Shown here: piece after piece, positions 23,163 through 64,000 of the stretch
How the letters are laid out: each line of letters begins with the position of its first letter
Position numbering within the stretch: the first letter of the stretch is position 1
Assembly: GCF_001540865.1 (NCBI RefSeq)
Contig: NC_033630.1
Span: 6,254,393-6,318,392, forward strand
Length of the DNA stretch: 64,000 nt
Source: Ananas comosus
Lineage: Eukaryota > Streptophyta > Magnoliopsida > Poales > Bromeliaceae
Direction of reading: 5' to 3'
Notes under the pieces: generated by a model
Database searches by the model: none
Told to the model about the DNA's origin: nothing
The model's input: only the letters and a program-made list of their open reading frames with translations
Position numbers and translations under genes: made by a program

Positions 23163-25674
23163 TGTCACGCCCCCGCCCCAAGTCCGCTACCGATTTGGTC
23201 CGGTTCGGGCGCGGCGAATGGACCGCCGAACGGACAGCAACTCCCCTGTCCGCCCAAGGCTTCAACAAAGAGGTCATGTACACAAGTTCCCAGGAAACAC
23301 ACTTGTTCACATACATGATCTAACAATGACGACGAAGCACAAACAGTGCTTAACAACCAAGAGCAAGCAACACAGGTAAGTATACAAGTTATAAAAAGAG
23401 AGAAGTACTTAACTATTGAACTCATTTAACTTTACATAACTCTTTCATCTTTTACAGTCTTCCAAAACATATGTACAATCACTCTCAAATCCTCACCCTA
23501 TACAACATCTACTCTCAAACATAGTTACAAGGTAAAGCTAATGCAAAAGGAAGTAGAGTTAGCTATGTACATATGCCACTATGGTGCTAGGCCCTTGCCG
23601 CGATTCTCATCGGGGCTACTCGAACTCGGACCTACAACAAAGTGGTATGAGAACTACAAATAGTTCCGAGTGGGTTCGGCCGCCAACTCCGCCGATCTTC
23701 CCACTAGGTCTAAGCAGGCACAGATAGATATGCAGATAGATAGATATATATAACTGAAAGCATTAACAAGGAATAAGCAAGTATAGGTATGAACATCTAA
23801 CTATGCCTCAATCTGGAATCATGCATGCATGTCATTCATATTGAATTCGTAGCTACCATACTACTATGCTCAATAATAAGGGTTGTTCATTACTTTACCC
23901 AATCATTCGATCATCCGGCAACACAATCTCACATTGATAAGTCTCATAGGGAAAAGCCTCGCTGAACTATTCTCCGAGACCGCCTGCGGACAGATACACT
24001 CACTGTCCAGGCAGCGCATGGCGACTGCCCCTCGAGTGACAAATACTCCGGAGTGCACAGCCTGTGGGGAGCGACCCTGACAAGCGCAGACAGGCTATGT
24101 GAGTATAATCTGAACTCACGAACTGGTCCTACCAACTAAGGTTGGTGTCAACATAGAATAAAGCGTTCCAATACCCAAGCTCATAGTGTTTTGCTACACT
24201 AGGGTTCTTATGTTCAATATCAACTAGATGCCACTCGTTTGTGTTCATGGTTAACTAGATGCCACTCGTTCTTTTGACAAGTTCTCATTACTCTAGTCCA
24301 CATTGTACTAGGTTTCCATAGCTACATGTACATCCAACACATATAGGATTAAACTGTATCATACTACCTTGAGCACACTAGGTTCTAGTGCTATATCAAC
24401 TAAGACGCATTAACACTAGCATGCAAACATAGATATTACTAACTTAGTTCCCTATATGCCATATGTTCAATATGCAACTGATCAACATAGTAACTCAGAC
24501 ATAGGGAGCAGTTCAACTGCTTCGGGATGGCACTCCCCCACCTTTTGGTAGTGCCGCGTAGTTAGCAAACTCGACGTTGCGGTCCTCGTACGTCGCTTCA
24601 ACTCCTCGGGGGAAAGCGAACCCTCAAGTATCAGTTTCGGCGATATCTTCGCGCTCGCTCGTCGGATCGACGAACCGTCTTCGCCTACGCGTTCGAAGAC
24701 TTAGCAATTAGGTTTACGACCTATTAAACAAGATCAAAACCTTACATTTCCAAAAATCCCTTATCGTGCCCTAGAATGGCAACGATGGAGAAATCCGTGG
24801 TGCGAGCTTCCATTTCGAGCTCGAACCATCTCCTTAACCTCAATAGGTTCCATTCGAACCATTTCTAAGCTATAAAACCCAATCTTAAGAAATCCACCAT
24901 GGTTGGGTTTGGAGCTTACCTCTTTACCAAGCTCCAAGCATGCTCTAGCTTGAGGGAGAGAGAGAGGAAGATGATCTTCTTCTTCTCCTTGCTCTTCTCC
25001 TTCTTCTTTCTCTACTTCTTCTTTTCTTTCTTCTCCTTCTTCTCTTCTTCTTTTCCTTCGTTCTAGAGAGAGAGAGGGAGAGAAAGAAAGGGCAAATGAG
25101 ACAACAGAGAGAGAGAGAGGGGTCCCCCACCTCTCACATAGGCCAATTTGCAAATAAGCCCCTCAACTTTCCATCTATTAAATAGCCTCTCACTGGGCAT
25201 TTTCGCAGTGAGGGACCGGTCCTAGCTCGGGGAGACCGGTCCCCGAGAGCCTCACATTCTGGCAGAGGGGATTTCGCGTTCGGGAACCGGTCCCTGCCTG
25301 AGAGACCGGTCCCCGAGAGACCGGTCCTTGTCCGAGAGACCGGTTCCCGAGAGTTGAATTTTCGGGACTTAGCCAAATTTCGGCTTCTCTCGCTGGGTTA
25401 ACGTTCGGGGACCGGTTCTTACCTGCCAGAGACCGGTTGCATCAAGGATCCCCGCCGACCCAGCCTGATGGGACCGGTCCCTCCCTGCCAGGGACCGGTC
25501 CCCGAGAGCAATTCTGCTCCAGTGCAGATTTTGCACTGCAGCTCTCGCGGACTTTTCCTTAATGCACTTTATGCATTCTAAGTATCTTCGGACTTTCCGA
25601 AGCTTACACCCTCGACGATTAGTCGGTTCCAAACGAAGTCTAATCCTCGAATTTTGAGAATTCACTTCCTTACA
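23163..25674 (-). repeat. Middle LTR of element B (3' LTR of the complete copy)
   Basis: Plus strand TGTCACGCCC to CCTTACA, 2512 bp. In sense orientation: ACCGGT palindrome cluster (25498-25215), a weak TATA (about 25140), CT-rich leader, tandem GAGTGGCATCTAGTT words (about 24267-24229), conserved hairpin (23666-23651), and the GGACAG/CTGTCC hairpin near the end. Confidence 0.9.
25213..25500 (-). promoter_or_regulatory. Paired ACCGGT palindrome cluster, element B middle LTR
   Basis: ACCGGT at 25215, 25235, 25286, 25305, 25320, 25339, 25411, 25432, 25473 and 25493. Spacing within pairs is 19-21 bp. Flanks make longer palindromes such as GGGACCGGTCCC. Confidence 0.85.
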
Positions 25675-25700
25675 TCCTCCCCACCTTAAAAGAGTTTCGT
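25675..25700 (-). promoter_or_regulatory. Polypurine tract of element B
   Basis: In sense orientation AACTCTTTTAAGGTGGGGAGGA abuts the LTR start TGTAAGG; the purine-rich part is the last 13 bases. Confidence 0.75.
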
Positions 25701-25765
25701 CCTCGAAACGAACTCAATATTACAAAACTTATTTAGAACTTTAAATTCTAAACTCATACCTCGAT

Positions 25766-26254
25766 TTACTCCTCGAACAAGTGAGGGTGATTCGCTTTCA
25801 TCTCCTCCTCGAGCTCCCAGGTAGCTTCGCGATCGCTATGATTGCTCCACCGGACTCGAACATAGGGAATTTCTCGATTCCTCAACTTACGTACTTCCCG
25901 AGCCAAAATCATCACCGGAAACTCCTCGTAGCTCATATCTTCTTGCAGTTCCGGCGGTTCATAAACTAAGACATGCTCAGGATCATGCACATACTTGCGG
26001 AGATTAGAGACGTGGAATACGTTGTGCACACCCGCAAGCTTGGGTGGCAATGCTAGTCGGTAAGCCACCGTCCCAATCCGCTCCAAGATCTCGTAGGGGC
26101 CGATATAACGAGGACTTAACTTCCCTCGCACCCCAAATCTTTTCACGCCTCTCATTGGCGAAACTTTCAAGAACACGCGGTCACCCACCGTGAACTCCAA
26201 GTCTCTATGGCGCCTATTTGAATAGCTTTTCTGTCGAGACTGCGCCGTGAGCAA
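25766..26254 (-). pseudogene. Element B: integrase C-terminus and chromodomain
   Basis: FTVGDRVFLKVSPMRGVKRF and KLSPRYIGPYEILERIG form the GPY/F region; YVRVRWSNHSDREATWELE is a chromodomain, a histone-mark reader thought to steer chromoviruses to heterochromatin. It should be fused to the integrase, but a TAG at about 26276 separates them. Confidence 0.88.
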
Positions 26255-26278
26255 TCTCTTGCGAGCAAGGTGGACTTT

Positions 26279-27271
26279 CTACTCCGCCTCTTGCAACACA
26301 TCGGGACCGAACTCTACATGCTCGCCCACATCACTCCAATGAATGGGAGATCGGCACTTCCGCCCATAAAAAGCCTCGAACGGTGCCATTCCCACACTCG
26401 CGTGATAGCTGTTGTTGTAGGCGAACTCGGCCATCGGCAGGTGCTTACACCAACTCCCCTTATAATCAATGGCACACGCCCGCAACATATTCTCCAAGGT
26501 CTGAATGGTTCTCTCGGTCTGCCCATCAGTCTGAGGATGAAACGCGGTACTGAACTCGAGTTGTGTGCCAAGGGCTTCCTGCAGGCTTTTCCAAAAGTGT
26601 GAAGTGAACTTGGGGTCTCGATACGACACAATCGACTTCGGCACCCCGTGCAGCCTCACCACCTCATCAAGATACACCTGCGCTAGCTTCTCACCTGCCC
26701 AAGTGTTGTGGATCGGCAGAAAATGCGCCGATTTCGTCAAACGATCCACAATCACCCAAATCGCGTCATGGCCACTCGTCGAGCGAGGTAAACCAATGAC
26801 GAAGTCCATCGACACGTCTTCCCATTTCCAGACGGGAATGGATAAACTCTGAAGCTTCCCCGCTGGAAACCGACACTTCGCTTTCACCTGTTGGCATACC
26901 AAACACTTCGCCACGAAGCGCCCAATATCGGCCTTCATTCCCGGCCACCAATAAAGCGTCTTCAACTCATGGAACATCTTGGTGCCGCCCGGGTGGTCGA
27001 CGTAAGGAGACCAATGCGCTTCTTGCAAAATTAGCTTGCGAAGCTCCTCGTCGTTTGGCACACACCACCGGTTCCGAAACCGAAGTGCACCACTAGCATC
27101 CATGCTAAAATCTCCACCACGGCCACTCTCAACATTGTGCCACACCTTCTGGAGAATTGGGTCCGCCGGTTGCAGACTTTTGATCCTCTCCAGTAAGGTC
27201 GGTTGGATCACCAACGTCATCAACCTAGCCGGAATTTCTGGAGCCACCACCTCAAGATCCATCTTCCCCAT
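26279..27271 (-). pseudogene. Element B: integrase, catalytic Asp replaced
   Basis: The HHCC zinc region (HPGGTKMF ... CLVCQQVKA) and core SMDFVIGLPRS are present, as is FHPQTDGQTERTIQTLE with the final Glu. The second catalytic Asp, normally in VSDRDPKF, reads Tyr (VSYRDPKF; codon 26621-26623). That should abolish strand transfer. Frameshifts at about 27275-27310 split it from RNase H. Confidence 0.88.
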
Positions 27272-27309
27272 TTGTAATCGCAGGGGCGTCTAACTTGTAA
27301 CCCACAAAG

Positions 27310-28458
27310 CTAGGTTCTCCGCGGATTTTCGGCTAAGTGCATCCCCACATTTGCTTTTCCGGGGTGGTAAAGGATATCAACATCGTAATCCTTAAGCAAT
27401 TCCAACCACCGCCGTTGTCGCATGTTCAGCTCCTTCTGGGTAAATAAGTAGTTTAGGCTTTTATGGTCGGTGTAGATCTCACAATGAGCACCATATAAAT
27501 AGTGTCTCCAAAGCTTCAAAGCAAAGATCACCGCCGCCAATTCCAAATCATGTATGGGGTAGTTCTTTTCATAGCTTTTCAACTGACGGGATACATAAGT
27601 GATCACCCCCCCGCCTTGCATCAGCACACACCCCAAACCCAGATAGGATGCATCGCTATATACTACATAATTTTCACCCTGCACCAGCAAGGCGAGTACC
27701 GGAGTCGTAGTTAATCTTTTCTTCAACTCTTTAAAACTCCGGTCGCAGTCGTCGCTCCAAACGAATTTGATGCCCTTCTGCGTCAGACGGGTGAGTGGAG
27801 TCACGATCTTCGAAAATCCTTCCACAAACCGTCGATAATAACCTGCTAGGCCTACAAAACTCCGGACCTCAGCAACGTTTGTCGGGCGCGGCCAACTCTC
27901 AATCGCCTCTACTTTCCTCGGGTCCACAGAAACACCGCCCTCGGAAATAACATGCCCGAGAAAAGCGACTTCTCGGAGCCAGAAGTCACACTTCTTTAGC
28001 TTTGCGTATAATTTCTTCTCCCGAAGGATCTGAAGTACTACGCGCAAATGCTCCGCATGCTCCTCTTCACTGTGTGAATAGACCAAGATGTCGTCTATGA
28101 AGACTACGACAAATCGGTCTAGACACTCCCTGAACACTCGGTTCATCAAGCTCATGAACGCAGCCGGGGCATTTGTATGCCCAAATGGCATCACGGTGAA
28201 CTCGTAGTGTCCATACCGCGTACGGAATGCGGTCTTCGGAACATCCTCCGGCTTAATCTTCAATTGATGGTAGCCGGATTGAAGGTCAATCTTCGAGTAC
28301 ACCCGCGACCCCTGTAACTGATCAAACAAGTCGTCAATGCGGGGTAACGGGTACTTGTTCTTCACGGTGACCTTATTCAACTCGCGATAATCCACGCAGA
28401 GTCGAAAAGATCCATCCTTCTTGCGCACGAACAATACCGGGGCTCCCCACGGTGACAC
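27310..28458 (-). pseudogene. Element B: reverse transcriptase and RNase H
   Basis: RT carries [36 protein letters not shown] (usual Leu is His) and the catalytic FIDDILVYS. RNase H follows with [16 protein letters not shown] and [14 protein letters not shown] at 28492-28494, in place of the expected Gln codon, cuts it from protease. The end is shifted after HPGKANV. Its role in an intact element would be cDNA synthesis. Confidence 0.9.
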
Positions 28459-28491
28459 GCTCGGTCTGATGAACTCCTTGTCGAGAAGATC

Positions 28492-29559: not shown

Positions 29560-29592
29560 CTCACGGTCCTCACGCTCACAGGCGTTCCCATG

Positions 29593-30480: not shown

Positions 30481-30830
30481 AAGCTCCTGAAACGCAAACA
30501 ATCGGTTAATCACCTAACCCAACAACGTCTTCGCAGTTACGAAACGACATAGCTCAACTACGTTAATCAGACGGAAGCTCATAAGTGTACCCGTTCTTGA
30601 CTCTCGGCATTGTGTTGTCGGCCGCCAACACAACCGCCTTAGGCCAAGGACTAGTATCACTCAATTCACCTCTAGAAACTACTAGAGCATCATCATCCAC
30701 TTCGACCCAATCTATCAACTTCCGTCGCATCATCGGTCCACGTCGTCCTCACGCACCTATAACCTTATGGTTCAACATCCTAGAGTCTCCTAGGTCAGTC
30801 CTAGACTCTCTCTTTTGCTTGCTCTTACTC

Positions 30831-30842
30831 GCTCTGATACCA
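30831..30842 (-). promoter_or_regulatory. PBS of element B
   Basis: Reverse complement TGGTATCAGAGC, four bases from the LTR at 30847. Confidence 0.9.
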
Positions 30843-33212: not shown

Positions 33213-33500
33213 GGACCGGTCCTAGCTCGGGGAGACCGGTCCCCGAGAGCCTCACATTCTGGCAGAGGGGATTTCGCGTTCGGGAACCGGTCCCTGCCTG
33301 AAAGACCGGTCCCCGGGAGACCGGTCCTTGTCCGAGAGACCGGTTCCCGAGAGTTGGATTTCGGGACTTAGCCAAATTTCGGCTTCTCTCGCTGGGTTAA
33401 CGTTCGGGGACCGGTCCTTACCTGCAAGAGACCGGTTGCATCAAGGATCCCTGCCAACCCAGCCTGATGGGATCGGTCCCTCCCTGCCAGGGACCGGTCC
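33213..33500 (-). promoter_or_regulatory. Paired ACCGGT palindrome cluster, element B right LTR
   Basis: Same arrangement as the middle LTR. The nearest unit is 72 bp upstream of the TATA box. Confidence 0.85.
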
Positions 33501-33672
33501 CCGAGAGCAATTCTGCTTCAGTGCAGATTTTGCACTGCAGCTCTCGTGGACTTTTCCTTAATGCACTTTATGCATTCTAAGCATCTTCGGACTTTTCGAA
33601 GCTTACACCCTCGACAATTAGTCGGTTCCAGACGAAGTCTAATCCTCGGATTTCGAGAATTCACTTCTTACA

Positions 33673-34553: not shown

Positions 34554-36977
34554 TGTAAGGTATCGAATTCTAGAAATTCGAGAGCTAAACTTCGTTTGGA
34601 ATTGACTTGTTGTCGATTTGGTGGACTTTGGAAAGTCCGAACGCGATAGAAATGCAAAAAGCGCATTAGGGTGGACCTTGGAGAGTTGAGGATTTCAAGT
34701 TTGCAAGTTTGCACCATTTCATCACTCTCGGGGTCCGAACCCTGGTGGTAGGGTCCGAACCCCGTAGCTACGAGAAAGCCCCCAAGGAAGTGGAAATTTC
34801 ATGTGTGCAACTTGCATACTTGGGCAACTCTCGGGATCCGGACCCTGGTGGTAGGGTCCGGACCCCGTAGCTGCAGAAACTTTGAGAATTGCAAAGTGTG
34901 CAATTCTCATGTTGTCCCAACTCTCGGGGTCCGGACCCTAGCTGGAGGGTCCGGACCCCGTACCTCGAAATTGCCGAAAATGGGCTGATGCAAGATGGCA
35001 AAGTTAAGGGGCTAAAATGCAATTTTTGCATAAGTATGGCTATATGAGAGGCTCTTGCTCTCTCTCTCTCTTCTCATTTCCCCTCTCCCACACCCTCACA
35101 CTTTCTCTCTCTCCCTTTAGAAAGAAAAGAAGAAGGAGAAGAAGAGAAGGAGAAGGAGAAGAACAAGAAGAAAAAGAAGGAGAAAAAGATCAACTCCTTC
35201 ATCTTCTTCCTCAAGCTTGGAGAGGCTTTTGGAGGTGAGCTCCGAACCCTTTTAATGGCATATTCCTAGGGTTTTGATAGAATACTCTAGGATTGGTTTT
35301 GATCAGATCCTACGATGCTAGTGATGTGCTAATGGTAAAAATCTAGGGTTTTATCGGAGTATTTTTTCATTGTTAAAACCTAGGGCACCAGAATGGGTAT
35401 TTGAGAAATAGTGGGTTTTGATCTCAATTCATTGGTCGTTAACCTAATTGATAGGTTTTCCAACGCGTAGGCGAAGACGGTTCGAGGATCCGTCGAGCGG
35501 GTGCGAAGTTATCGTCAAAAGAGACCCTCGGAGCTTCGTTTCCGCCTAGAAGGCCAACGAGGCGTCGTAAAATCGGCGAATTGTTTTCCAAGAGTCGCGA
35601 CGTCGCCACAAAGTGGGTGGTGACTATCCCGAAGCAGTTGAATTGCTCCCTATGTCTAAGTGTTATTATTGATCGAATTGCATATTGAGCATGGTCCATA
35701 TAGGGTGTTAGATGTGAACACTAATGTTTATGCTTATGTAACTTTGATTGCTTGGCACTAGGGTCTAGTGTGCATGAGGTCGAGTTGTTGCTTAATAACC
35801 CTATGATGAATAATGAACATGCTATGTGGGAAAGTCTAGTGATATATAGAGTGTGTAATGCAAATGGTGAGTAAATGACGAGTGGCATCTATTTAACGTG
35901 AAACTATGACGAGTGGCACCTAGTTAATGTTGAACACAAGATCGAGTGGCAATTAAGAACCTTAGTATATTTGAAACACTAGGAGGTTGAGTATTAAACC
36001 TACATTGGATTGATGAATTGCAACCCTAGATGGCAGGGTATCCTCACTAGTTTGAGGATTGGATCGTGCTCGTGTAGCCTGTCATGCTTGTGGTGGTCAC
36101 TCCACACAAGCCGTGCACTTCGGAGGTTGTCACAGGTAGGACTAACGTACTTGTCCGCAGGCGGTCTCGGGGGTTGGAGCGCTTAAAGTCCCCTCCTTCT
36201 CTGAGATTTGAGACGAGAGTAGAGGCAAGCTTTCGGGTTTGCCGGCTAATTGGGTGAGCTTATAATGAATGTCATTAATGAACATAGTGGCTTAGTAGCT
36301 AGTTCCTTACTAGAAGTTGCGTGCATACATGATACTAGATTGAGGCATGGTAGAGTATTTTCACTTTTGCTTATCATTATTCCATTGCCTGTATCGCTTT
36401 TCAGTTCATCTATACATATCTATCTGCCTATGCCTGCTTAGACCTAGTGGGGAGATCGGCGGAGTCGGCGGCCGAACCCACTGGGAACTATCCGTAGTTC
36501 TCACCCCACATTGTTGCAGGTCCGAGTTCGAGTACTCTCGGCGAGGACCGCGGTAAGCGCGTAGCGCCCTAGAGGTTGTAGCAGTTTACTTTCCTATTTG
36601 CACTAGAGTTACCCTATACCTATTTTGAGAGTAGATGATGTATAGGGTGTGAGGTTTTGGATGACTGTATATTTACATATTGGAGAGTACAATGCTGTAT
36701 TAATTGTAATTAAGTGGAATGGTTGTAATAGTTAAGTATCTCTCTTTATTCACCTGTATGGTTGTATTACTCGTGATGCTTGCTTTCGATTGTTTAGCAC
36801 TGTTTGTGTTTTCGCTAATTGTTGTATGGTTGTGTACGTATTCAAGTTGTTTTTCTGGGAACTTGTTGTACATGATTCTATTGGTCAGCTGCGAACGGAC
36901 AGGGAAGGTGCTGTCCGTTCGGCGCCTGTCCATGTGCCTGCACCGGACCAAATCGGCAGCGGTCGCGGGGCGTGACA
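34554..36977 (+). mobile_element. Solo gypsy LTR S2
   Basis: TGTAAGG to GCGTGACA, 2424 bp, with ATTAC at 34549-34553 and 36978-36982. U3 has three pairs of TCCGGA-type palindromes (34730-34965), then a TATA at 35041 and a CT- then GA-rich leader. R/U5 has three GAGTGGCA words (35880-35950), a GGTCACTCC block (36104), the conserved hairpin (36483-36502) and the GGACAG/CTGTCC hairpin (36893-36920). Confidence 0.9.
34730..34965 (+). promoter_or_regulatory. Paired TCCGGA palindrome cluster, solo LTR S2
   Basis: TCCGGA or TCCGAA at 34734/34754, 34837/34857 and 34930/34950: three pairs, each exactly 20 bp apart, within GGGTCCGGACCC contexts. TATA box about 75 bp downstream. Confidence 0.85.
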
Positions 36978-37810: not shown

Positions 37811-39021
37811 TGAAAGATATGGATCCCGAGGATCTAAAAGGTAAGTAACACCTAGAGGGGGGTGAATAGGTATAAAAACGGCAAACTCGAAAATCTCGAT
37901 GCAAATAAAACAAAGTAGCGGAAAATAAAACAGCACACCGAGAATTTAACGTGGGAAAACTCCAATTCGGAGTGAAAAACCCACGGGACCGATCACACGA
38001 AGAAAATCCACTAAGAAAACTTGAGTACAAGTGATTTTGACGAAAATACACGACTCAATTTACCGATTTCTTGTTGATGGTGATCTTCGCCGGTCCTCGA
38101 TTGATAGGAATCCACCAACCGACTTCGCTGCAACTCCTCGCAGCGTCAACGCCTCAACTCCTCGAAGCGTCCACCGAATCCTCGGCTTCACACGAGATTC
38201 ACGCGCCGAATCTCCTTCCGGAGCTTGTAGAATCGAAGATTTGTGGTGATTTAATCTTTGAATACCATAAGCTATGAGGGTTCGTCTTCTAATCAAATAT
38301 CAACTTGATTCTCAGAGAAGATCTCGAGTAAAATCAAAGAATCACGTCGATTGTTGATTTTTCGAAACTTGTTATGTGAATAGAATCATCGAAACGGAAA
38401 AACAAGTTTCGAGGGTTTAGAATCAGTAAAAATTCAAAGCCTTAAACTTTAAGACGACCCCCATAGCTTATTTATATGTTTAGAAGACTTAGAAGTAGAC
38501 TAGGATTGCAAAAAGTCCTTTTTAAAAACCTGTGTCGTCCTCAGGGACCGGTCCTCTCGAGGAGACCGGTCTGTGAGAGACCGGTCTCTCAAGTGAGGAA
38601 CCGGTCCCTCGCTGCGTGACCAAAATCACAACGTTCGGGAACCGGTCTTTCAAGCTTGAGACCGGTCCCTCGCTGCGCGACAGATTTACCAAGGTTCGGA
38701 AACCGGTCTCTCATCTCAGGGGACCGGTTGCCTCAACATTCCACGCAGTGAGGACCTTCGGGGACCGGTCTCTCAACTCTGGGACCGGTCCCAGAACACT
38801 GAAAAGTTCAGTTTAAGTGTTTTAAAGCAATCTAAGTCTTCTGAACTTATTGTAATTAGATAAATTCATCACAAATGATCTATTCTTCATACCTGAGGTG
38901 CCGAGCTTTCCAAAATGAGTCTTTGTTCTTTAAATTGAATCTTTTCTTCAAACTTCCGCAATCAACTCTTCAAGACTCCATTCAACATTACGAAATCCGC
39001 CAACCTATAAAATCCTTAACA
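37811..39021 (-). repeat. 3' LTR of element D
   Basis: TGAAAGATAT to CCTTAACA. In sense orientation a palindrome cluster (38790-38547) lies 71 bp upstream of a TATA box (TATAAATA at 38476-38469). Confidence 0.9.
38545..38792 (-). promoter_or_regulatory. Paired ACCGGT palindrome cluster, copia D 3' LTR
   Basis: ACCGGT at 38547, 38565, 38580, 38600, 38641, 38661, 38702, 38723, 38764 and 38784. Pair spacing 18-21 bp. Confidence 0.85.
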
Positions 39022-39034
39022 ATCTCCCCCTTTG
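39022..39034 (-). promoter_or_regulatory. Polypurine tract of element D
   Basis: In sense orientation AAAGGGGGAGAT abuts the LTR. Confidence 0.85.
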
Positions 39035-39510: not shown

Positions 39511-40392
39511 CTAATCTGAAGCATCCCCTGGGGGTAAATCTGCTCTGCAACACCCTAACTTGTCAAAAATCATATTGAGTAATCGCTTCATCTTGCTCAC
39601 ATCCTTTCGTATCGCAGCCTGCTCTGCAGACAATTTCTGAAGCTCCTCAGATAAACGTTGTTGCTCACGATACACAGAGGAAACTGAGATATCTTCCTCG
39701 GAAATGTCCATAGAAGGACGTGAAGAAGTAGCAGTAGCAGGAGGTGGAGCAGCAGGAGGGGAAGAAGCACGCTGAGACGGGGTACGAAGCTGCACCGAGG
39801 ACTTCACAAATGTCCTTTCATTGATCCGACCCAAACTATGCTCATATGATGTACAACGAACATCCACATCATGAAGTCGCAGAATCCGCATGATAATTAA
39901 TGGAAATGGCAACCATTCATTTTGTCCAGAAGTTTTGATGTCCTTCGCCATTCTCCGCAAGATCAAAAATGGGATATTCATGTTGATATTTTTTACACTT
40001 ACAATATCAGGCCGAGCCAATAAATACATGTATAAGATGCGATCCCATCTCAAAATCTTCGTGTTCGCGAGAGGCAGAATGTTGTAGCAAACCACGAAGT
40101 TCAGAAACCGGTACTCCATTCTGAAATCTTTGGACATAACCATAATGCCGTTTGATTCAGTCCCCGGCATGCAAATAGTGTTCACAACACGGTTCCAATC
40201 GCGAAGTGAGTCGAATCCAGCCTGTAGATATTCCACTCCTTCAGTCCTAGCTTCCATTCCTAGCACAGACGCTATCGTATGAGGAGTAATTGATAACTCA
40301 ACACCACGTACGGAAGTGATGAATACGTACGGGCCGCCGTCGGAGTCACTCAAGTGACCTGCTCTCATATAGAATTCTCTAATCAATTCCAA
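39511..40392 (-). pseudogene. Element D: post-pol ORF, C-terminal part (plant transposon-protein domain)
   Basis: ELIREFYMRAG, a VRGVELSITPHTIASVLGM stretch and NWNR/ILPLANT-like words resemble the domain seen in the extra ORF of Sire-type elements (Putative plant transposon protein family, to my recollection). It is sometimes called envelope-like from its position only. A Ser/Pro-rich linker and a Glu/Lys coiled coil (about residues 225-275) follow. No clear signal peptide or transmembrane anchor is seen. Separated from its start by a stop and frame change near 40390-40540. Confidence 0.7.
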
Positions 40393-40917: not shown

Positions 40918-42523
40918 ATTGAAGAAATCCCCTGTTAAACATAATGATTTTTATATACTGAACAAAAGAACACTTAATTTTTTTATTCCAAAAAAATTTC
41001 GGCAAATTTGATATATAAATGCTAGATAATCCTAGGGGCCACAAACTCATGAGAAACATGAACAACTAAAGCAACAAAAATCAGTAAAACCACATGATTC
41101 CCAAAAAATTAAAAAAAAAACAGGCTTTTGATGATAAAAACCTACCAAATTTGACCAAAAAGATGAAGAAATACAAGAGAAAAGGAAAATAACAAGTCTA
41201 AGAACAAGATCGAAACACAAAACTGCAGATTTAGCTAGATCTCTAGAAAAACCACCAATAAATCTGAAACGAAACACATTTTCGGAGTATATGATACAAA
41301 TGCAACAAAATCCGAAAATCATACCTAAAATCAGTGCAAATCTACGAGAGACGTGAGTAAAAACAGATCTGGAGTCAAGAGAAGTTCAAAAGAAGAAGCA
41401 GGGAGAAAAAAAAAGGCATACAGGACACATCGAACAAGAAACCCTTTTATCGGGTCGGGCAGAGGGACCGGTCTCTCCTGCCTGGGACCGGTCCCAGAGC
41501 CTGAAATTTCGAAAAATTCTAAAATAAGCCCAAAAAATTTCAGAAAAAATATAAGTTTTTCCACAATGTGCAATCAACACAAATAACCAATTTCCATCCA
41601 CAAAAACTTTAAATAAAATTTCATACATAAATTTTGAAAAGTCAATTTCAAGGATATTCAATTTGGCAAAATTGTTGACCCGAAAATCAATGATAATTCT
41701 AAATACATATAAAATAAAATCTCACACATCATGCAAGATCTAGGAATTTATTGTATTATTTTATCATCATATTTGTTAAAGAAAATGTATAAATAATTCT
41801 CAAATCGTGAAATCACAATAATATGTTCAAAAAGAGTTATGCACAATATTCAAGACAGGAGCGGCTCTTTGAGCATCTTTTTTTTATTAACATTCCACCT
41901 TATATCACCTATGAGATGTATAGCTCTTTGAGCATTTTTTTTTTAATCTCTGAAAGGTACTTTCCTTTTGTTTTATAGAGATACTTTAATCAACATGTGG
42001 TAGCTGCACACACTGACCGGACGACCGGGGTGGTAGCTCTTTCCTCCATGTGGTGGTAGTTTTCACACTCCCAGTAGGGATGTAACTCTTTCCACATCTT
42101 GAATATCAGAAACTTTCATAACCAAAATTGGAAAGACTCCCCCTAAATTAGTGCAACCCTCAAGTCAAAAATATTATTTCAATTTCAAAAACAGAGAAAG
42201 TTATTCATCTCAAAACTCATAATCAAGCAAACAATAGCAACATTCAAAGTTCGAAGCATGAGGTGTTGAATTTGATTCAGTATGCAAAACAGAATCTCAA
42301 TGATTTGATCGTTCAACAATTGTGACAATATAGAACAATCTTCACAGTGATCAATCAAAAATTAAATATGAAATAATTAAAGTTACGAACCGATTCATCT
42401 CCCAAAAGTAGCAACATTAATCAAGAAATTCAATCATCTCTCAAGCACAATCAGGAAATACCAGAAACCATTCACAAAAATAAGATGCAACATGCACATG
42501 ATCTATGGCCCAATAGAATATAT
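40918..42523 (-). other. Element D spacer between pol and the post-pol ORF
   Basis: AT-rich, with no coding similarity recognised. It contains one pair of ACCGGT palindromes at 41467 and 41487, exactly 20 bp apart. Confidence 0.6.
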
Positions 42524-47442: not shown

Positions 47443-47444
47443 CT

Positions 47445-48654
47445 TGAAAGATATGGATTCCGAGGATCTAAAAGGTAAGTAACACCTAAAGTGGGGTGAA
47501 TAGGTGTAAAAACGGCAAACTCGAAAATCTCGATGCAAATAAAACAAAGTAGCGAAAAATAAACAGCACACCGAGAATTTAACGTGGGAAAACTCCAATT
47601 CGGAGTGAAAAACCCACAGGACCGATCACACGAAGAAAATTCACTAAGAAAACTTGAGTACAAGTGATTTTGACGAAAATACACGACTCAATTTACCGAT
47701 TTCTTGTTGATGGTGATCTTCGCCGGTCCTCGATTGATAGGAATCCACCAACCGACTTCGCTGCAACTCCTCGCAGCGTCAACGCCTCAACTCCTCGAAG
47801 CGTCCACCGAATCCTCGGCTTCACGCGAGATCCACGCGCCGAACCTCCTTCCGGAGCTTGTAGAATCGAAGATTTGTGGTGATTTAATCTTTGAATACCA
47901 TAAGCTATGAGGGTTCGTCTTCTAATCAAATATCAACTTGATTCTCAGAGAAGATCTCGAGTAAAATCAAAGAATCACGTTGATTGTTGATTTTTCGAAA
48001 CTTGTTATGTGAATAGAATCATCGAAACGGAAAAACAAGTTTCTAGGGTTTAGAATCAGTAAAAATTCAAAGCCTTAAACTTTAAGACGACCCCCATAGC
48101 TTATTTATATGTTTAGAAGACTTAGAAGTAGACTAGGATTGCAAAAAGTCCTTTTTAAAAACCTGTGTCGTCCTCAGGGACCGATCCTCTCGAGGAGACC
48201 AGTCTGTGAGAGACCGGTCTCTCAAGTGAGGAACCGGTCCCTCGCTGCGTGACGAAAATCACAACGTTTGGGAACCGGTCTCTCAAGCTTGAGACCGGTC
48301 CTTCGCTGCGCGACAGATTTACCAAGGTTCGGGAACCGGTCTCTCATCTCAGGGGACCGGTTGCATCAAAGCTCACGCAGTGAGGACCTTAGGGGAATCG
48401 GTCTCTTAAACTCAGGGACCGGTCCCTGAACACAGAAAAGTTCAGTAAAATATTTTTAAAGCAATCTAAGCCTTCTGAACTTATTCTAATTAAGTATCTT
48501 CACCACAAATGATCTTTTCCTTATACCTTAGGTGCCGAACTTTACGAGTGAGTCTTTGTTCTTCAATTTAGATCTTTTCTTCAATCTTCCGCAATCAACT
48601 CTTCAAGACTCCATTTAACATTACGAAATCCGCCAACCTATAAAATTCTTAACA
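47445..48654 (-). repeat. 5' LTR of element D
   Basis: Near-identical to 37811-39021. Its palindromes are partly decayed (ACCGAT at 48180, ACCAGT at 48198) where the 3' LTR has perfect ones. TATA box at 48109-48102. Confidence 0.9.
48178..48424 (-). promoter_or_regulatory. Paired ACCGGT palindrome cluster, copia D 5' LTR
   Basis: Same positions relative to the LTR as in 38545-38792. Two units carry point changes. Confidence 0.82.
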
Positions 48655-51069: not shown

Positions 51070-53416
51070 TGTCATGCCCCGTGACTGCCAATTTGGCCTG
51101 TTCGGGCACGTCCACAGACACCGAACGGACAGGATCTCCCTTGTCCCCCCAAGGCTCAATAACAACCACATGTATAGCCATTTCATACATAGAAAATTTT
51201 GGTATACACAGCTTGCTCGAGGGCAAGCAACAACAACTAAAGTGAAAGTAAGCTAACTACCATTACAACATCTATTGTACTTTGCAAGATTGAAACAAAA
51301 TACAAAGTTTGATACTTCATTACATCCAGATTCCAAATTAAATCATATGTTCTTCAAATACATACATCATTCTTTCTATATAGTTCATTCATCAAGTACA
51401 AAAGATGAATCTCAAAAGTGTACAATACTAAACTTGACGGAGGCCCGCTATCTAGGGCGCAATACCCTTGCCCCGATCCTCGATCGCCCCGCTCGCGCTA
51501 GGATATGCAAGGTTAGTGGTGTGAGAACTAATGAAAGTTTTCAGTGGATTTGGCTCCCGACCTCGCCGACTCACCTACTAGGTCTGCTCAGGCATATGTA
51601 AGAAAGAAAAGAGATATAGTAACCAGAACTAATGCTACTACAATAGCCGTACAAAACTGGAAAGAGATTCTATACTCATGATGCATGTATGCTCTTTTAC
51701 CTTTACCTAATCCACTTGTTTAATCCTTTAGTTAAACCTCAACTCACCAAATCAAATCCCTTTTGTCGAGGAGAATACCGCTACAACCTGACGGGACCGT
51801 CTGCTGGGGAGAATTCCACTACCAACCCAGTTGATGACACTTCAGAGCTCACCGCCCAAGGTGGAGCGACCTACCTCGAGCATTCAGACTACCTGTCAGT
51901 ACGATCCAATCCTCACTTGAAGGATATCATGCCACAATCTTAACAAGCTCTTTATTCTATGTTTAGCATTTCCAATTCTAGATACTAACCAATTCATCTC
52001 ATTATAATGCCACAAGTTCATTTTCCTTGTCTAGCATTTCCCAATACTAGGTGCTACTAATGCCGTCTAGTCACAATGTCACTTGTTCACTAGTGTCATA
52101 GTTCAATGCTTCATACATCTATAGGGTTTCTATGTTCATCATTTATAGTTCACATGTTCTTTGCTTCCAAAGCATACAAGATTGCACCATTACCACATAT
52201 ATCACATTTATCCTATAATGCATGAATCTACTATGCTCATACAATATGCTTAAGAAGTAACTAGACATAACGGGTCATTCGAAGACTTCGGATAGCACCA
52301 CCCACCTTATAATGATGCCGGAGTGCGAGAAAACCACTTCTCGCGATTTATTGTCAAACATTCCTCTCGCCCCACGACAAACGAAGCCGAAACGAGGCTT
52401 TTCCTCAATAACTTGGTGTAGACTCGTCGGAATCTCGATCCGAGCCTCCCAACGCATCGGTTTATACTCCAATTAGGGCTATAAGAGATCAAACCTAACT
52501 TAGATCTCATAGATTACAAAATCTCATTTTTTCCCTTAGGGTTCATACAAGACACCCAATATAATCTAAGTTTGTATGATTTCATAGCATAATCAAGCTC
52601 TAGAAATCCTAAAGACTACAAAACCTAACCATTTAGGGTATAAAACCAAACCCTAATCAAAAAGTTGCAAGAAACCTATCTCAGGTTCTTGCTCCAAGAA
52701 GTCCTTCTTTTCCAAGAGCCTCTACTTCACCAAAATTTCCAAACTCTAACTTCAATTCTCTTTCAATTCCACCATGGAGTAGAGTTCTCTAGAAAGAGAA
52801 GGAGAAGGAGATGAGGTTTGGAGGAGAAAACGAAGCACTTTCTGCATCAGAAGTATAGGTGTAGAGGTGGGGTATTTATATAGGCCTGCACAATTGCAAT
52901 TAAGCCCCCCAAATAAACCCCCATCAACCATTACAAACAGGTCCTTCCCAGTCTGGGTACTGGTACTCGTGTTGTAGTACCGATACCAAAGACTTCTAAT
53001 ACCAGTACCCGACAGCAATACCGGTACCAACCCTCCAACCCGAAGCTACGAAATTCCTGCACCCTTCGCAGTATCGGTACACAAGAACAGTACCGGTACA
53101 CAGGACCTGTATCGGTACACAGCCTCGTACGGTTCGGATCCCGAGAGCTGTATCAACACACACTGGCTGGGTACAGGTACTACATCACTTTGTTACCGGT
53201 ACCAAGTGCAAATTCTGCACTTTAACAGCAGAATTGCTATGGGAATTCATTTTCGCGCCCGGTTTGCACCGAAAACCCCTAAACAACTTCGGAACTCATT
53301 TCTAACCATCCCTACGCCTCAGAAATGACTCGGGGATGCCGCAATTCATACTCTTGCTTCACTTTGATCAATGCGATTAAAGTTAGCATCGTAACATGGC
53401 GATTCAGTATAGTACA
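51070..53416 (-). repeat. 3' LTR of element C
   Basis: TGTCATGCCC to TAGTACA, 2347 bp, followed by a purine tract (sense AAGGGGGGAGAT). In sense: GTACCGGTAC-type palindromes (53205-52957), TATA box TATATAAATA at about 52880, the hairpin with wobble pairs at 51542-51523. Confidence 0.88.
52957..53205 (-). promoter_or_regulatory. GTACCGGTAC-type cluster, element C 3' LTR
   Basis: Units at 52959, 52979, 53001, 53020, 53073, 53092 and 53111, several with one change, spacing 19-20 bp. TATA box about 80 bp downstream in sense. Confidence 0.8.
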
Positions 53417-54118: not shown

Positions 54119-55244
54119 TGTAAGTTTAGAGGAGCCCTAGGATCTATCTAGATTGTATCAAACACCTAGAGGGGGTGAATAGGTGTAACGGCCAAAAATC
54201 ACAAATCTCAATGCGATAAAAATAAACGCGGAAAATAAAAATCACACTGAGATTTATGTGAGAAAACTTCAACTTGGAGAAAAAACCCACGGGACCAACA
54301 CGCGAAAAAAAAAATTCACTGAGAGAAAAGATTATAAGGTGATTACCGACTCCACGGACTCGACCTCTCTTAACTTCCTATGAATCTCGCGCAATCCTCC
54401 GGGTTGTCCATGCTCTCACGTTCGAATCCACAAACGCCTAGCACACGTCCGAATCCACGAACGCCACTTGAATCCACGATCCCACGATCCGAATCCTCGA
54501 ACCGCCTTGATCACGTCGAATCCACGACGCCGTCCATGAAAAACATCATGCTATGGTGATCCTTTGCTTAGAGTATCGATGAAAACCAGAGAAGAAAACT
54601 CCAAGCGAAGAGTAGATCAAATCGACATATAGATATCAAATTATAATATCTCGATTTGACCTAGAAGAGGCTTCTTTGTAAAAAATAGGTTTTGGACGAA
54701 AAACTAGCCTCTAGGGTTTCTCAAACATGAATTCTCGTGATGCTTCATGAGTTAGAGAACCCTAATACCTTATTTATAGACTTTAGAATCAATTGGAGTC
54801 GGATTAGAAAGTTTTCGGATTTTTCACATTGTGTACCGGTACAAAATTGAGGTGTTACCGGTTACACGATGACGGAATAGAAAACCGTAAAGACTTGAAA
54901 CCGGTTACAAGTTGATTGTTGTACCGGAGCAAGTTTGTACCGGTACACTTTCAATGTTGTACCGGTACACAATGCATTTTTCAGATTTTGCACTGTTTCG
55001 CGTTTCACGAAGCTCCGAAGCACTTTCTAATCCACTAAACTTTGATTTTAATGATTCTAATGCCTATAACTAAGTGTGAATCACCATAACATGAAATAAA
55101 ACTTACCCGAGTATCGTGATTCACATCGTGAGTTATTTCTGCATTCTTCGAAATCTTGGATTCTTCGATCTTCGACGATATGCTCCGAACCCTTCAAGAC
55201 TCCGACTCAATTCACGAAACTTGCCAATACAAAAATACTTAACA
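54119..55244 (-). mobile_element. Solo copia LTR inside element C integrase
   Basis: TGTAAGTTTAG to CTTAACA, 1126 bp, with CTATT at 54114-54118 and 55245-55249. The layout matches element D's LTR (CACCTAGAGGGGGTGAATAGG near the left end), but the palindromes are GTACCGGTAC type (54835-54966). In sense they lie 57 bp upstream of TATA (TATAAATA, 54778-54771). Confidence 0.88.
54833..54968 (-). promoter_or_regulatory. GTACCGGTAC-type cluster, solo copia LTR
   Basis: Units at 54835, 54857, 54900, 54923, 54939 and 54961. Spacing 16-23 bp. Confidence 0.78.
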
Positions 55245-59593: not shown

Positions 59594-60745
59594 TGTCACG
59601 CCCCGAGACTGCTACCAATTTGGTCCGGTTCGGGCGCGTCGAACAGACGCCGAACGGACAGCATCTCCCCTGTCCGCCCAAGGCTAAACAACCTGATCAT
59701 GTACAAGAATTTGCTCAGGAATAGAAATTCTATACATACACAATTAACGAAGGGCACAACAAGCGCCAACAACTAAGAGTAAGAGTCACATGTGCATACA
59801 AGTGAACAAAAGAGAGATCTACTAGCTATTACATCCATTGCATTCATTTACCTTAAGTTACATTTACATCTTTTCTAAAATGGATACATGTTTACTAGAT
59901 CATCACCAAAATACATCAATAGCTCTCCAATCCTCACCTACATAAATCACTCGTATACATAGGTGCTACTAATGCAAAAGGAAAGCTACTATACTACTGC
60001 TCGGGCGCTATACCCTTGCCGCGGTCCTCGCCCGGCGTACGCAAACTAGGCCCTACAACAAAGTGGGGTGAGAACTATTGTCCATAGTTCCCAGCGGGTT
60101 TGGCCGCCGACTCCGCCGATCTCCCCACTAGGTCCGAGTGGGCAAAAGCAGGTAGATAGATAGATAGATATGAAAGCGGTAAATGACATAATAAGAAAAC
60201 TACGCTACTATGCCCAATCAATAATCATGTACGCATTCATCATATAGTGAGTAATTAACTAACATGCAACTATGTCCACTAATAATGTCCAATAAGCATA
60301 TGTTCAATAACAGTGCTATTCTCTTGTTTACTCAATCATTGGCGATCCCTTGGATTCGCCCATGACTCACCTCGCCATCCCGTATGGTAAGGAGACTCAC
60401 CTCGCTCTCAAATCTGGGACCGTCTGCGGGACCTCAACTCTGCCCCTCTCGCGCCAAACTCCGGAGTGCACGACGACTTGTGTGGCGGGACCACCACAAG
60501 TATAAACAGACTGTGATTATGATCCATCATCTCAACTCGAGGATACCCTATCAACTAGAGCTAGTTGTCACTCGGGAATTCACCTATCCCAATGTCCATA
60601 TGTAAGTACTTGACTACACTATGTTCTTTGCTCAACGAGTCATCACTAGGGAGTTCACCTATCCCTAAGTTCATATGTCACTAGTGTCATTATACACTAC
60701 ATTATATGCCACTCGTTCTGTTCATTTGTCAAGCACATGCCACTC

Positions 60746-61124
60746 ATTATGTCACTAGGTAACCATCGAGTCCATCTCTTTTCCTCGGCACTATAGGATT
60801 CAATGTCAAGACCCAATCCTTATCTATCCATTATACCAAGTATTCAACTCACACTATGATATCAATTAGAAAGCATAAGAAATGGAAAACAATGCAATAC
60901 TACAATGCAATATGCCAGAGATGCAAAATCATGGNATTATGTCACTAGGTAACCATCGAGTCCATCTCTTTTCCTCGGCACTATAGGATTCAATGTCAAG
61001 ACCCAATCCTTATCTATCCATTATACCAAGTATTCAACTCACACTATGATATCAATTAGAAAGCATAAGAAATGGAAAACAATGCAATACTACAATGCAA
61101 TATGCCAGAGATGCAAAATCATGG
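60746..61124. repeat. Exact 189-bp duplication flanking an N (probable assembly artefact)
   Basis: 60746-60934 and 60936-61124 are identical around the N at 60935. Confidence 0.88.
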
Positions 61125-61849
61125 TGTACTAAGACATAGAGAGGAACCCGGTTGCTTCGGGATGACACCACCTACCTTTCGACGATGTCGAGGCTCTAAG
61201 AACACTTCTCGGCACTTACTACGATGTCGTCTTGGCCCCCAAGGTGGAAACAAAGCCCAATCGGTCTTGTTTTGTCGATATCTTTTCAACGACTCGACGA
61301 ATCGTCAATCTGTCTTCGCCAACGTGTTTAGACACCTAGCAATTAAGTTTAGATGCTATCAATTGAGATCAAACCTCACTATTAGGCAAAACCCCAATTT
61401 GGAGCCCTAGGTTTGCATCTAGGCAAAAAGCCCCAACAAAGCTCTAGATTCTAGCATTAAACCTCCATTAGGTGTGCTAGTGATCCAATCAAACCATTCC
61501 TAGAGCTAAAAACCCAAACCCTAGCAAGCTACCATGAAAGGGGTTCATAGCTTACCTCCAAGCTAGCTCCAATGGTGTGGAGAGGAAGAGGGAGATGACC
61601 AAGGCCCCTTCTCTAGCTTGCTTCTCCTTCTTCTCCACCTTCTTCTCCTTCTTTTCCTTCTTCTCCTTCTTTACTTCATGAGAGGGAGAGAGAGAGCTTA
61701 GAGAGAGAGAGATGTATGTGTTTGGGTGGGAAAATAAGAGGGAGAGAGGGTGATCTCCTCTCTATACCCCCAACTAATGCAAAATTGCATCCAAGCCCCT
61801 CAACTTTGCACTCTGTGCACTGCCCAACCTGGGCAATTTTCGTGCTCGG

Positions 61850-62075
61850 GGACCGGTCTGTCCCTAGAGGGACTGGTCCTCGAGAGCAACCCTCGTGGGC
61901 AGAGGCTCTTAGCCAGCTTCTACGCGTACGGGGACCGGTCCTCGCCTGAGGGACCGGACCTTCAAGGACCGGTCCCCCCTCGAGGGACCGGACCCCGAGA
62001 GCAAACATCGCGCGCAGAGTTTTCTGCCGCACATTCAGCTTACGGGGACTGGTCTCTCCCGCCAGGGACCGGTCC
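61850..62075 (-). promoter_or_regulatory. GGACCGGTCC-type cluster, solo LTR W
   Basis: Units at 61852, 61872 (ACTGGT), 61934, 61953, 61968, 61987, 62048 and 62068. Pair spacing 19-20 bp. Confidence 0.8.
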
Positions 62076-62266
62076 CTGAGAGCAATTTCTGCCAAGTGCA
62101 GATTTTTGCACAGCTTGCTCTCGTGGATCTGTTGCAATGCACTTTTCGGATTTTCGACTTCTTCGGCTTTTCCGAAGCATACCCACTCGACAATTAGTCG
62201 ATTTTAATCAAAGTCCAACTCTCGAATTTCGAGAATTTACTTCCTTACATAGACTTTCACTTTCAC

Positions 62267-62278
62267 GCTCTTATACCA
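62267..62278 (-). promoter_or_regulatory. PBS of element C, one mismatch
   Basis: Reverse complement TGGTATAAGAGC against the usual TGGTATCAGAGC, seven bases from the LTR at 62286. Confidence 0.78.
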
Positions 62279-62285
62279 TTATATC

Positions 62286-62416
62286 TGTCACCCCCCGTGA
62301 CTACCAATTTGGCCGGTTCGGGCATGTCCATAGATGCCAAACGGACAAGACCTCCCCTGTCCGCCCAAGGCTCAACAACAACCACATGTATAGCCATTGC
62401 ATACATAGAAAATTTT
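62286..62416 (-). repeat. 5' LTR of element C, cut after 131 bp
   Basis: TGTCACCCCCCG, then words matching the 51070 LTR (CCACATGTATAGCCAT, ACATAGAAAATTTT). It is interrupted by the LTR at 62417. Confidence 0.82.
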
Positions 62417-64000
62417 TGTAGTACACTGAACTTCAGCAAACTGCAAGGTTCTAGTGTTAGAATAGTAATTGAAACTATTCTAGGATTTGTGAGGATTTGT
62501 CGAGGGCACTTAGGCATTTAATTTAAGTGTTTTAAATGCCAGGTCATGTACATAACACTAAAGTCTGTAAAGTTTAGATTGGGGTGTTGAGGACTCAGGT
62601 ACCGGTACCCTAGAGGGCTTACCAGGTGCGTAGCTTTCAGGTTTGAGTAGCTGAAGCTGAGTACCGGTACAGCATTGCGCGGGTACCGGTACCCAGTGTT
62701 AAAATTTGCTACGCAGCTCTCGGGTTTGGCTGTTTATAGGCCGAGTACTGGTACCTCAACCCAAGTACCGGTACCTCAACCTAAGTACCGGTACCCAGTG
62801 CGGCAGATTGAGTTGGTAAGGGGTTTTTTGGTAATTTCATAGTGATGGTTATCCATTTAAACCCCAGCTCGACCTTAGCTAATGTTTCCTGTGCTAGAGC
62901 TTGAGGAAAAACAGGGTAAGCTCTACTCTTTCTCTCTTTAGGGTTTATTCCATTTTGAGTGGAAATTAGTAGATTTGAGCTAGTTTCTTTACTTCTCTTG
63001 ATGCTAGTTGGTTTGGAGAGTCTTGGAGCAGCCGTAGAAGTGTGGAAAAAAGAGTTTTGAGAGTGATTCTTCAACCCTAACTCAGGTATAACCGAGTTGG
63101 AGCTTGGGAAGGTTAGTAATCTAGCTTTTCTCTAGTATTGATGTTATTGGTAGTAGTATTGGAACTACTTTAGAATAGTTCACGGCTGAAGTTGTGGAAC
63201 TTATGTTGGATGTTGTTAACTCTCTTTTAGGTTGGAATTTCAGTTGCCAACCTAAGGTGAAGTGGAGATTAAGCCTTGGTTCAATACTAAGTAAGATTCT
63301 ACCTAAGTTAGGAGAACTTGTGAGGTTCTTATTGGAAGGTTTGAGTACTAACTTAGTATGGTTGTTAGGGTGCTGGGAGGCTAGAGAGTACCTTCGCTCG
63401 CAGGAGCGACAAGAGTTGACAGCGATTCGGTGGGTTTGACCTCACCGAAATGGGTGAATTCCCCCTATGTTCTTATTCTTGACATAGAGTTAGAATTATG
63501 CATATGTTTACTAGCGGCATCATAAGCGAGTTGTTGGCAGTAATAGTGGTATTTACATCATATAGCAAGTTATACTCTATGTAGTAGAGAGCTAAAGGTG
63601 TTAAATTCCTTGCATGATAACTAGTATACTTGTGTAGACAAGTCGGGAATGGATATAATATGCTTAGACTAGCATGATGTTTAGACTAGCATGAATTTCA
63701 TATGGTTGTTATAACCTAATTGATAACTAGCATTTAATATTGGACTTAGATCCCGACCTATAGGTTGGTAGAGGACATTCCATGTTTGAGACATGACGAT
63801 TGAGAACCCTGTATCGTGGATTCGCACATGCTTGTGAGGGTCGCTCCCCACAAGCCGGCACTCCGGAGTTGGCCTACGCGACATCATGCGCGCCTTTGCG
63901 GGATTAGGTGCCTAAGTGGATTGCCGTGGGGAGTGTATACTACCACGTGGCCATTATAAATTGAACAAAGATACTAAATTGAACAAAGATACTAAATTGT
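62417..64000 (+). mobile_element. Gypsy LTR related to S1, running off the window
   Basis: Starts TGTAGTACACTGAAC, paralleling S1's TGTAACACACTGAAC. It has a GTACCGGTAC cluster (62599-62796) and the GGTCGCTCC block (63839). Candidate left duplication ATTTT (62412-62416). The 3' end and any internal region are not in view. Confidence 0.8.
62599..62796 (+). promoter_or_regulatory. GTACCGGTAC-type cluster, right-end LTR
   Basis: Units at 62601, 62621 (decayed), 62663, 62685, 62747, 62767 and 62787. Spacing 20-22 bp. Confidence 0.8.

Follow-up and report, generated by a model that had tools for sequence, protein, structure and literature searches.

Long terminal repeat (LTR) retrotransposons make up much of many plant genomes, and the switches of their promoters are known for few of them. 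Elements of the Tnt1 and Tto1 type carry activator repeats, that is, short repeated cis-elements in the U3 region upstream of the TATA box; to our knowledge, each of these is confined to one family and none is common to gypsy and copia elements. In maize copia Sireviruses, a palindromic cluster with the CCGG-bearing consensus CACCGGACNNNGTCCGGTG reportedly lies in the regulatory part of the LTR, and Bousios is said to have read it in 2016 as a small-RNA hotspot and a source of hairpins. Here we describe palindrome arrays in the LTRs of both gypsy and copia elements within a stretch of 64,000 nucleotides of Ananas comosus DNA (contig NC_033630.1, positions 6,254,393 to 6,318,392), which we call the window. 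They have the U3 placement of the Tnt1 and Tto1 repeats with other sequences, and they share with the maize cluster CCGG-bearing palindromes in the regulatory LTR part, the maize case being one of copia elements and of a small-RNA or hairpin reading. The Tto1 element, of 13 bp, is mentioned in the part of PMC3485330 used here.

The closest described system is formed by the RM boxes of Sireviruses. The passages of PMC2829016 (Bousios 2010) on which we draw throughout report these palindromes in 13 Sireviruses, in 12 of them with a CGG-CCG core; they mostly begin 200-400 bp after the LTR start, a conserved TATA box follows them, and extra copies lie upstream of ENV. They were called Sirevirus-specific after a comparison of Ty1/copia elements, and according to the same passages no common binding factor could be named for them. 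Like the arrays described here, RM boxes are high-copy palindromes that occupy the first half of the LTR ahead of the TATA box, and further copies precede ENV. The half-sites recur as well: CGGTC is that of the published Vitis, Osr8 and Osr10 motifs, CGGTA that of Inga and CGGAC that of OPIE-2 and Usier. On the other hand, RM boxes have no or few bases within their CGG-CCG core, whereas the units here are centred on CCGG and paired; RM boxes belong to Ty1/copia Sireviruses, whereas here gypsy LTRs carry arrays too; and helical phasing, seen here, finds no mention for RM boxes in those passages. The initial annotation of the window was not aware of any plant LTR module like this in the literature, a view that does not hold: for copia elements the RM boxes are that module, in a different packing. 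No description of RM-like arrays in gypsy LTRs was found in the open-access literature, among the matches listed. What is apparently new is the presence of arrays in chromovirus gypsy LTRs, the CCGG-centred pairs, the helical phasing, and array types that match across but not within superfamilies.

Eight LTRs of the window, six gypsy-type (S1, B, G4, W, C and T3) and two copia (D3, which is the 3' LTR of element D, and the solo LTR SOLO), carry arrays of 6-10 ten-base palindromes each, with the consensus GNWCCGGWNC (Table 1). We think that they are probably U3 operator (enhancer) arrays for a dimeric host DNA-binding protein, aligned on one face of the DNA upstream of the promoter. The observed basis consists of the units, their position in the LTR, their spacing and helical phasing, the conservation of units over spacers and a similarity between the superfamilies that goes beyond the units. 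Three 10-bp dyads build the arrays, namely type a (GTACCGGTAC) in W, C, T3, SOLO and the remnant X, type b (GGACCGGTCC) in S1, S2, G4 and D, and type c (GGTCCGGACC) in B.

Exact ACCGGT or TCCGGA cores occur 91 times in the window, compared with a mean of 24.9 in Markov-1 simulations (maximum of 20 simulations, 32), and ACCGGT alone occurs 74 times, which is 4.1 times the Markov-2 expectation of 18.2. Pairs of the form ACCGGT-N8-24-ACCGGT are found 28 times versus 0 in 100 dinucleotide shuffles, these occurrences being non-independent (S1/S2 and D3/D5 are copies, and there are tandem duplications within arrays). The rule by which we called units is loose, with 152 called in the window and a mean of 58.6 in simulated windows. 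All five pairs cited in the initial annotation are present (ACCGGT at 38641/38661, 25215/25235, 17418/17438 and 62767/62787; TCCGGA at 34837/34857); the T3 array (52957-53202) had been overlooked there. The gypsy-type LTR Y has no array, and its first kilobase is free of other palindromic clusters. Excluded from the statistics were the copies S2 and D5, the array-free Y, the split array X and D41, which is a single pair inside D.

Among the 77 called units of the eight LTRs, 62 lie at LTR offsets 170-540, a zone that was picked after inspecting the data and comprises 2960 of 16337 bases; the other 15 are scattered. The LTR starts used in the computations deviated by 1 base in S1, G4, B and W and by 74 in T3, whose true start is at about 53416; this leaves the gaps unaffected, makes the total of 16337 too high by 74, and gives corrected T3 offsets of 214-450, within the zone. 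With the corrected T3 start, the arrays cover LTR offsets 174-476, and most of them precede a TATA-like box. Measured on a list of units that was partly hand-picked, the centre of the last unit is followed by a clear box (TATAAATA or TATATAAA) at 79-81 bp in T3, 73 bp in D3 and 59 bp in SOLO, and by a weaker one (TATATGAG) at 88 bp in B and 75 bp in S2. The boxes of G4 (88 bp; TATAGAGA, second best in the scan) and C (64 bp; CATTTAAA) are both weak, and S1, a near-copy of S2, has lost its box.

Potentially, it is the density of CpG and CHG sites that matters, in a CpG or methylation island, and not binding sites. CCGG contains sites of both kinds, and RM clusters are reported as marking CpG islands (PMC2829016). 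However, the observed-to-expected CpG ratio (o/e) of the arrays relative to the rest of the LTR is inconsistent: it is higher in S1, G4, W, T3 and C and lower in B, D3 and SOLO (D3 array: GC 0.60, o/e 0.92, rest of LTR 1.29; SOLO array: GC 0.43, o/e 1.30, rest 1.37). Furthermore, such an island leaves the dyads and the phasing unexplained, and we give it hardly any credence.

The eight arrays contain 54 adjacent gaps, 38 of them below 30 bp and 16 longer. The short gaps measure 15-23 bp, with 33 of the 38 at 18-23 (13 at 20, 8 at 22 and 7 at 19). Pairs at 18-22 bp had been claimed before; the five cited pairs exist and most short gaps are close to this range, but since they spread over 15-23 bp there is no sharp 20-bp peak, and we dropped such a peak for a phasing by whole turns. 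The long gaps are 40, 41 (four times), 43, 51, 53, 61, 62 (four times), 72, 73 and 83 bp, which corresponds to 4, 5, 6, 7 and 8 helical turns. The mean power over arrays is maximal at 10.3 bp and is equalled by 0 of 5000 jittered sets, also if gaps of at least 30 bp alone are jittered. When repeats within an array are removed, R of the long gaps is 0.89 (0 of 20000 jitter controls). Their phasing persists when any single array is removed (P at most 0.00015), when each related group is represented by one array (P = 0.0019, 0.0043 or 0.0071 by representative) and with exact cores alone (R = 0.70, P = 0.00035). The phasing tests used rule-called units or exact cores; the gap pattern was noticed before testing, and the range of 10.2-10.6 bp was taken from the known DNA helix. 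Array X, outside these tests, has gaps of 22, 84 and 62.

Could the arrays be functionless minisatellites, grown in the LTRs by slippage and unequal exchange? Tandem repeats do exist, such as the 61-bp units in D and the copies of about 100 bp in B. However, the phasing is also seen with distinct gap values alone (P = 0.0004) and across families, slippage would not lead two superfamilies to carry the same dyads at matching LTR offsets, and W and C keep their units, not their spacers. We regard a neutral origin as very unlikely.

The related LTRs W and C were compared. In a 114-bp block with four units, 39 of 40 unit bases are identical versus 28 of 74 in the remainder (Fisher, 3e-11), 10 of these 28 coming from one shared CTCGGGTTTG, and the gaps of 22-62-20 are unchanged. 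In the homologous LTRs S1, G4 and B, the gap that precedes the final pair measures 51, 62 and 73 bp, respectively, and changes in steps of 11. B is of type c and S1 and G4 are of type b, so both sides of the dyad have changed in the B units; because arrays multiply by duplication, this change may represent few events. Unit conservation, gap steps and the dyad change in B speak for selection that acts on the dyad as well as on its rotational placement along the duplex. Units and spacing that are kept while spacers drift, combined with whole-turn gaps, point to protein sites on one face of the duplex. The dyad units, their preservation over drifting spacers and the phased long gaps thus support the cis-regulatory array for a dimeric factor that the initial annotation had suggested.

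Instead of binding a protein as DNA, the cluster might fold in the transcript, U3 being transcribed in the 3' LTR, and form RNA hairpins that serve as a small-RNA template or a structural signal; the DNA sites need not be bound in this case. The folding energy is below that of block-shuffled controls in 8 of 8 arrays (z from -4.4 to -10.9), a crude control, and with the units fixed, which gives the better control, it is below that of spacer-shuffled sequences at z of -3 or lower in 5 of 8 (S1, B, G4, W and SOLO), whereas T3 (z = -1.95), C (-0.7) and D3 (-1.0) fold no better than these controls. On average, the pairs are composite dyads (0.361 versus 0.252; 0 of 400 shuffles, 33 pairs). Small-RNA hotspots over maize Sirevirus palindromes are reported in the cited parts of PMC5311732 and PMC10760457; in the latter, Ty3/RLG elements are generally without the structured LTR peak seen in copia elements, and the motif occurs in Helitrons. 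On the other hand, hairpins predict neither the helical phasing of the long gaps nor the free drift of the W and C spacers at fixed spacing, nor the self-symmetry of single units: lone units are likewise palindromic, a property not needed for a stem formed by two units. Hairpins in place of protein sites are in our opinion unlikely, while a small-RNA or hairpin role beside the role as DNA is possible.

Next to the binding sites themselves, there is the question of how two superfamilies came to have them. The LTRs had been described as otherwise unrelated, which is contradicted for the gypsy LTRs: alignments reach 65-80% among S1/S2, B and G4 and, in pieces, 75-85% between C and W, and the 3' half of B contains a stretch of 43-150 bp common to C, W, T and Y. 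The LTRs of D and SOLO are 78% identical over 162 bp. The array type breaks with this descent, the related D and SOLO having types b and a and the related S1/G4 and B types b and c; the type of D matches S1 and G4, and that of SOLO matches W, C and T3. Furthermore, W and SOLO have 36 bp at 94% and 55 bp at 82% in common, D41 and S1 37 bp at 89%, and D5 and S2 110 bp at 73%. Without the 10-mers, the mean best gypsy identity of 8 copia pairs is 0.522, compared with 0.410 in shuffles that changed the copia pairs alone (0 of 500). These similarities would follow if whole pairs (about 36-55 bp) were passed as cassettes between gypsy and copia elements, through gene conversion or through template switching between RNAs packaged together. 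Such a transfer concerns where the pairs came from and does not conflict with the sites being bound as DNA. However, the shared stretches are short, the best single similarity (0.609) is moderately above shuffles (P = 0.012), no breakpoint is seen, and if the binding site includes the flanks, convergence would produce these similarities as well. We take exchange as a serious possibility, though one that we would not bet on. The earlier proposal of modules "convergent or exchanged" stands as far as the similarity beyond the 10-bp units is concerned; the data fit an exchange of pairs as well as a convergence on one factor, and the two are indistinguishable here. If pairs were exchanged, the promoters of retrotransposons would evolve partly as shared modules.

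The copia carriers D and SOLO look like Sireviruses, judging from several marks. The size of D, 10,844 bp, and its PF20167 open reading frame (ORF) at the ENV position, broken upstream, fit large elements with an ENV gene. On the minus strand, its polypurine tract AGGGGGAG begins at 39031, which puts it exactly 10 bp ahead of the 3' LTR (start 39021), as in Sireviruses; the linker holds two exact copies (at 39031, and at 42144 before ENV) and one variant at 39462, and pol holds two more, the expectation being 3-5 copies in the linker, mostly after ENV (PMC2829016). The junction between 5' LTR and primer binding site at 47445, CA-AGTGG-TATCAGAGC, fits the Sirevirus form CA-ATTGG (or AGTGG)-TATCAGAGC. 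A C-rich integrase signal near the 3' end of the LTR (CACCTATTCACCCCCCTCTAGGTG in D3, near-identical in SOLO, decayed in D5) matches the Sirevirus signal in kind, and a Sirevirus-like mid-LTR TATA box (TATAAATAAG) follows the cluster, 73 bp (D3) and 59 bp (SOLO) past the last unit. The cluster offsets (230-467 in D3, 276-402 in SOLO) fit the position of RM boxes upstream of TATA. As to extra RM-like copies upstream of ENV, D has one pair, D41, where PMC2829016 lists 2-18 copies.

D and SOLO differ from the published CGG-CCG core with few intervening bases: the half-sites are the same and the packing is another. With up to 8 bases between the halves, CGGTC-GACCG occurs 3 times in the window, each time across two neighbouring units with 7 bases between, and CGGTA-TACCG and CGGAC-GTCCG occur 0 times. 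D shows most of the Sirevirus marks tested, and we therefore see the copia half of the arrays as a variant of the known RM boxes; it would be a variant and no plain member because the half-sites agree but the packing differs. The gypsy arrays lack the Ty1/copia carrier of RM boxes, as element S codes for gypsy proteins with a chromodomain and T is homologous to S.

In the proposed mechanism, each 10-bp palindrome GNWCCGGWNC would be a putative site for a dimeric host DNA-binding protein. The dimers would be placed in pairs about two helical turns apart and successive pairs at whole-turn distances, so that the proteins would stand in a row on one side of the helix, immediately before the promoter, and switch the transcription of the element. 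In Sireviruses the sites would correspond to the known RM boxes, and the chromovirus gypsy LTRs of this plant would use the same sites in the same geometry. Protein binding, the dimeric state, activation and the use of one and the same factor by both superfamilies are what we infer from sequence.

Several observations speak against such operator arrays. The scan gave no convincing TATA box for W; the distance of 57-85 bp to TATA given in the initial annotation is about right where a box is present (59-88 bp) and wrong for this LTR. Short gaps vary by several bases, and 5 of the 38 (15-17 bp) are off the whole-turn grid. T3 holds just 3 exact cores. Related arrays are non-independent, and for copia alone the phasing is weakly supported (P = 0.044; four gaps, of which three are tandem copies). 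Finally, the spacers of five arrays out of eight contribute RNA folding beyond that of the units, a feature for which a model of DNA sites alone has no need.

A further-reaching idea is that the Sirevirus and chromovirus elements of this plant share one stereospecific U3 enhancer, with dimer sites aligned on a single face at whole-turn intervals and tuned to variants of the same host factor, and with site pairs passed between the superfamilies. We offer it tentatively and find it rather doubtful; if it is true, a regulatory cassette, not a gene, moves between retrotransposon classes. The helical phasing provides a geometry that can be tested directly: a 5-bp insertion between pairs should break it and a 10-bp insertion should not. 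Use by two superfamilies also filters candidates for the factor, as the factor or its paralogues should bind GGACCGGTCC, GTACCGGTAC and GGTCCGGACC. Among the matches listed, the literature names no plant factor binding ACCGGT, and papers matched by sequence words contain nothing about LTRs of plants.

Within D, a ATAAAAGG box (41450-41443) lies 20 bp beyond the D41 pair, and there is a pyrimidine-rich leader. The pair together with the box (41443-41494) is a candidate internal promoter, going by its sequence. An internal ENV promoter was suspected by the authors in 2010, and none was identified in the cited passages of PMC2829016.

Table 1. Palindrome arrays and LTR elements of the window, in window coordinates (TSD, target site duplication; RT, reverse transcriptase).
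Feature	Coordinates	Strand	Remarks
S1 array	25213..25501	minus	10 units, type GGACCGGTCC
S2 array	33213..33500	minus	10 units, near-copy of S1 array
B array	34732..34957	plus	6 units, type GGTCCGGACC, 4 exact cores and 2 decayed
G4 array	61850..62075	minus	8 units, type GGACCGGTCC, 4 exact ACCGGT
W array	17293..17445	plus	6 units, type GTACCGGTAC
C array	62599..62794	plus	6 units, type GTACCGGTAC
T3 array	52957..53202	minus	10 called units, type GTACCGGTAC, degenerate, 3 exact cores
D3 array	38545..38791	minus	10 units, type GGACCGGTCC
D5 array	48178..48425	minus	arrangement as in 3' LTR, some units decayed
SOLO array	54833..54968	minus	6 units, type GTACCGGTAC
X array, left part	17062..17093	plus	cut by W insertion
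X array, right part	19576..19647	plus	runs from 19576 onward
D41 pair	41465..41494	minus	inside D, between RT ORF and ENV-position ORF; units 41465/41485
ENV-position ORF of D	39511..40392	minus	Pfam PF20167; reading frame before it broken
Copia element D	37811-48654	minus	10,844 bp, 1.2-kb LTRs, TSD CTAAA
D 3' LTR (D3)	37811-39021	minus	
D 5' LTR (D5)	47445-48654	minus	
SOLO, solo copia LTR	54119-55244		TSD AATAG
Gypsy element S, LTR S1	23163-25674		
Gypsy element S, LTR S2	about 30847-33672		element has second, partial internal copy
B, solo gypsy LTR	34554-36977		TSD ATTAC
G4, solo gypsy LTR	59594-62249		TSD GTCTA
W, solo gypsy-type LTR	17094-19496		TSD GGTAC
C, gypsy-type LTR	from 62417		cut by window end
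T3, gypsy 3' LTR	51070-53416		
Y, gypsy-type LTR	13581-16417		
X, remnant			split by insertion of W

By self-comparison and boundary reading, the window consists of plant DNA in which LTR elements are nested. Element S codes for gypsy gag, protease (RVP_2), RT/RNase H, an H2C2 integrase and a chromodomain (PF00385, 28.4 bits versus a cut-off of 25.1, E = 1.5e-6, ORF 25766-26278). Going by this chromodomain at the integrase end, S is an element of the chromovirus lineage of gypsy, presumably of the lineage named Tekay. W and C were put in gypsy by their LTR ends and a short LTR similarity to B alone (W is a solo LTR and C is cut). In D, a copia RT is followed downstream by the ORF at the ENV position. 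A protein search matched plant copia polymerase (best 120 of 7979), and a search for relatives in viral contigs and prokaryote genomes gave no plant LTR among the matches listed. ACCGGT was counted in the viral-contig stretches matched (at least 120 in one comparison and 12 in another), of which one (L128) was inspected; the rest were judged chance or coding, and none was used.

The order of S at 20864-33672 is LTR, internal part, LTR and partial internal part, with the second internal copy 97-99% like the first; the arrangement reads as a tandem element formed by recombination. LTR S2 contains an exact 315-bp tandem duplication (31362-31992), and the solo LTR G4 an exact one of 189 bp (60746-61124). 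The window also holds a D-free paralogue of the target of D (13581-16419, compared with 37047-37810 plus 48655-50737), and the ends of D and its 5-bp TSD are confirmed by this paralogue, the target being a relative of Y. W is inserted within a GTACCGGTAC unit of array X (17084-17093, 19497-19501), and its TSD derives from the unit; palindrome targeting by LTR elements is the topic of PMC6911290, as far as the part used here goes. The region 4797-5415 is AT-rich, with AAATTTT-type repeats, and self-complementary over about 570 bp. Several inverted and direct repeats of 130-180 bp with 74-91% identity lie at 10908-13283; these are perhaps small DNA transposons.

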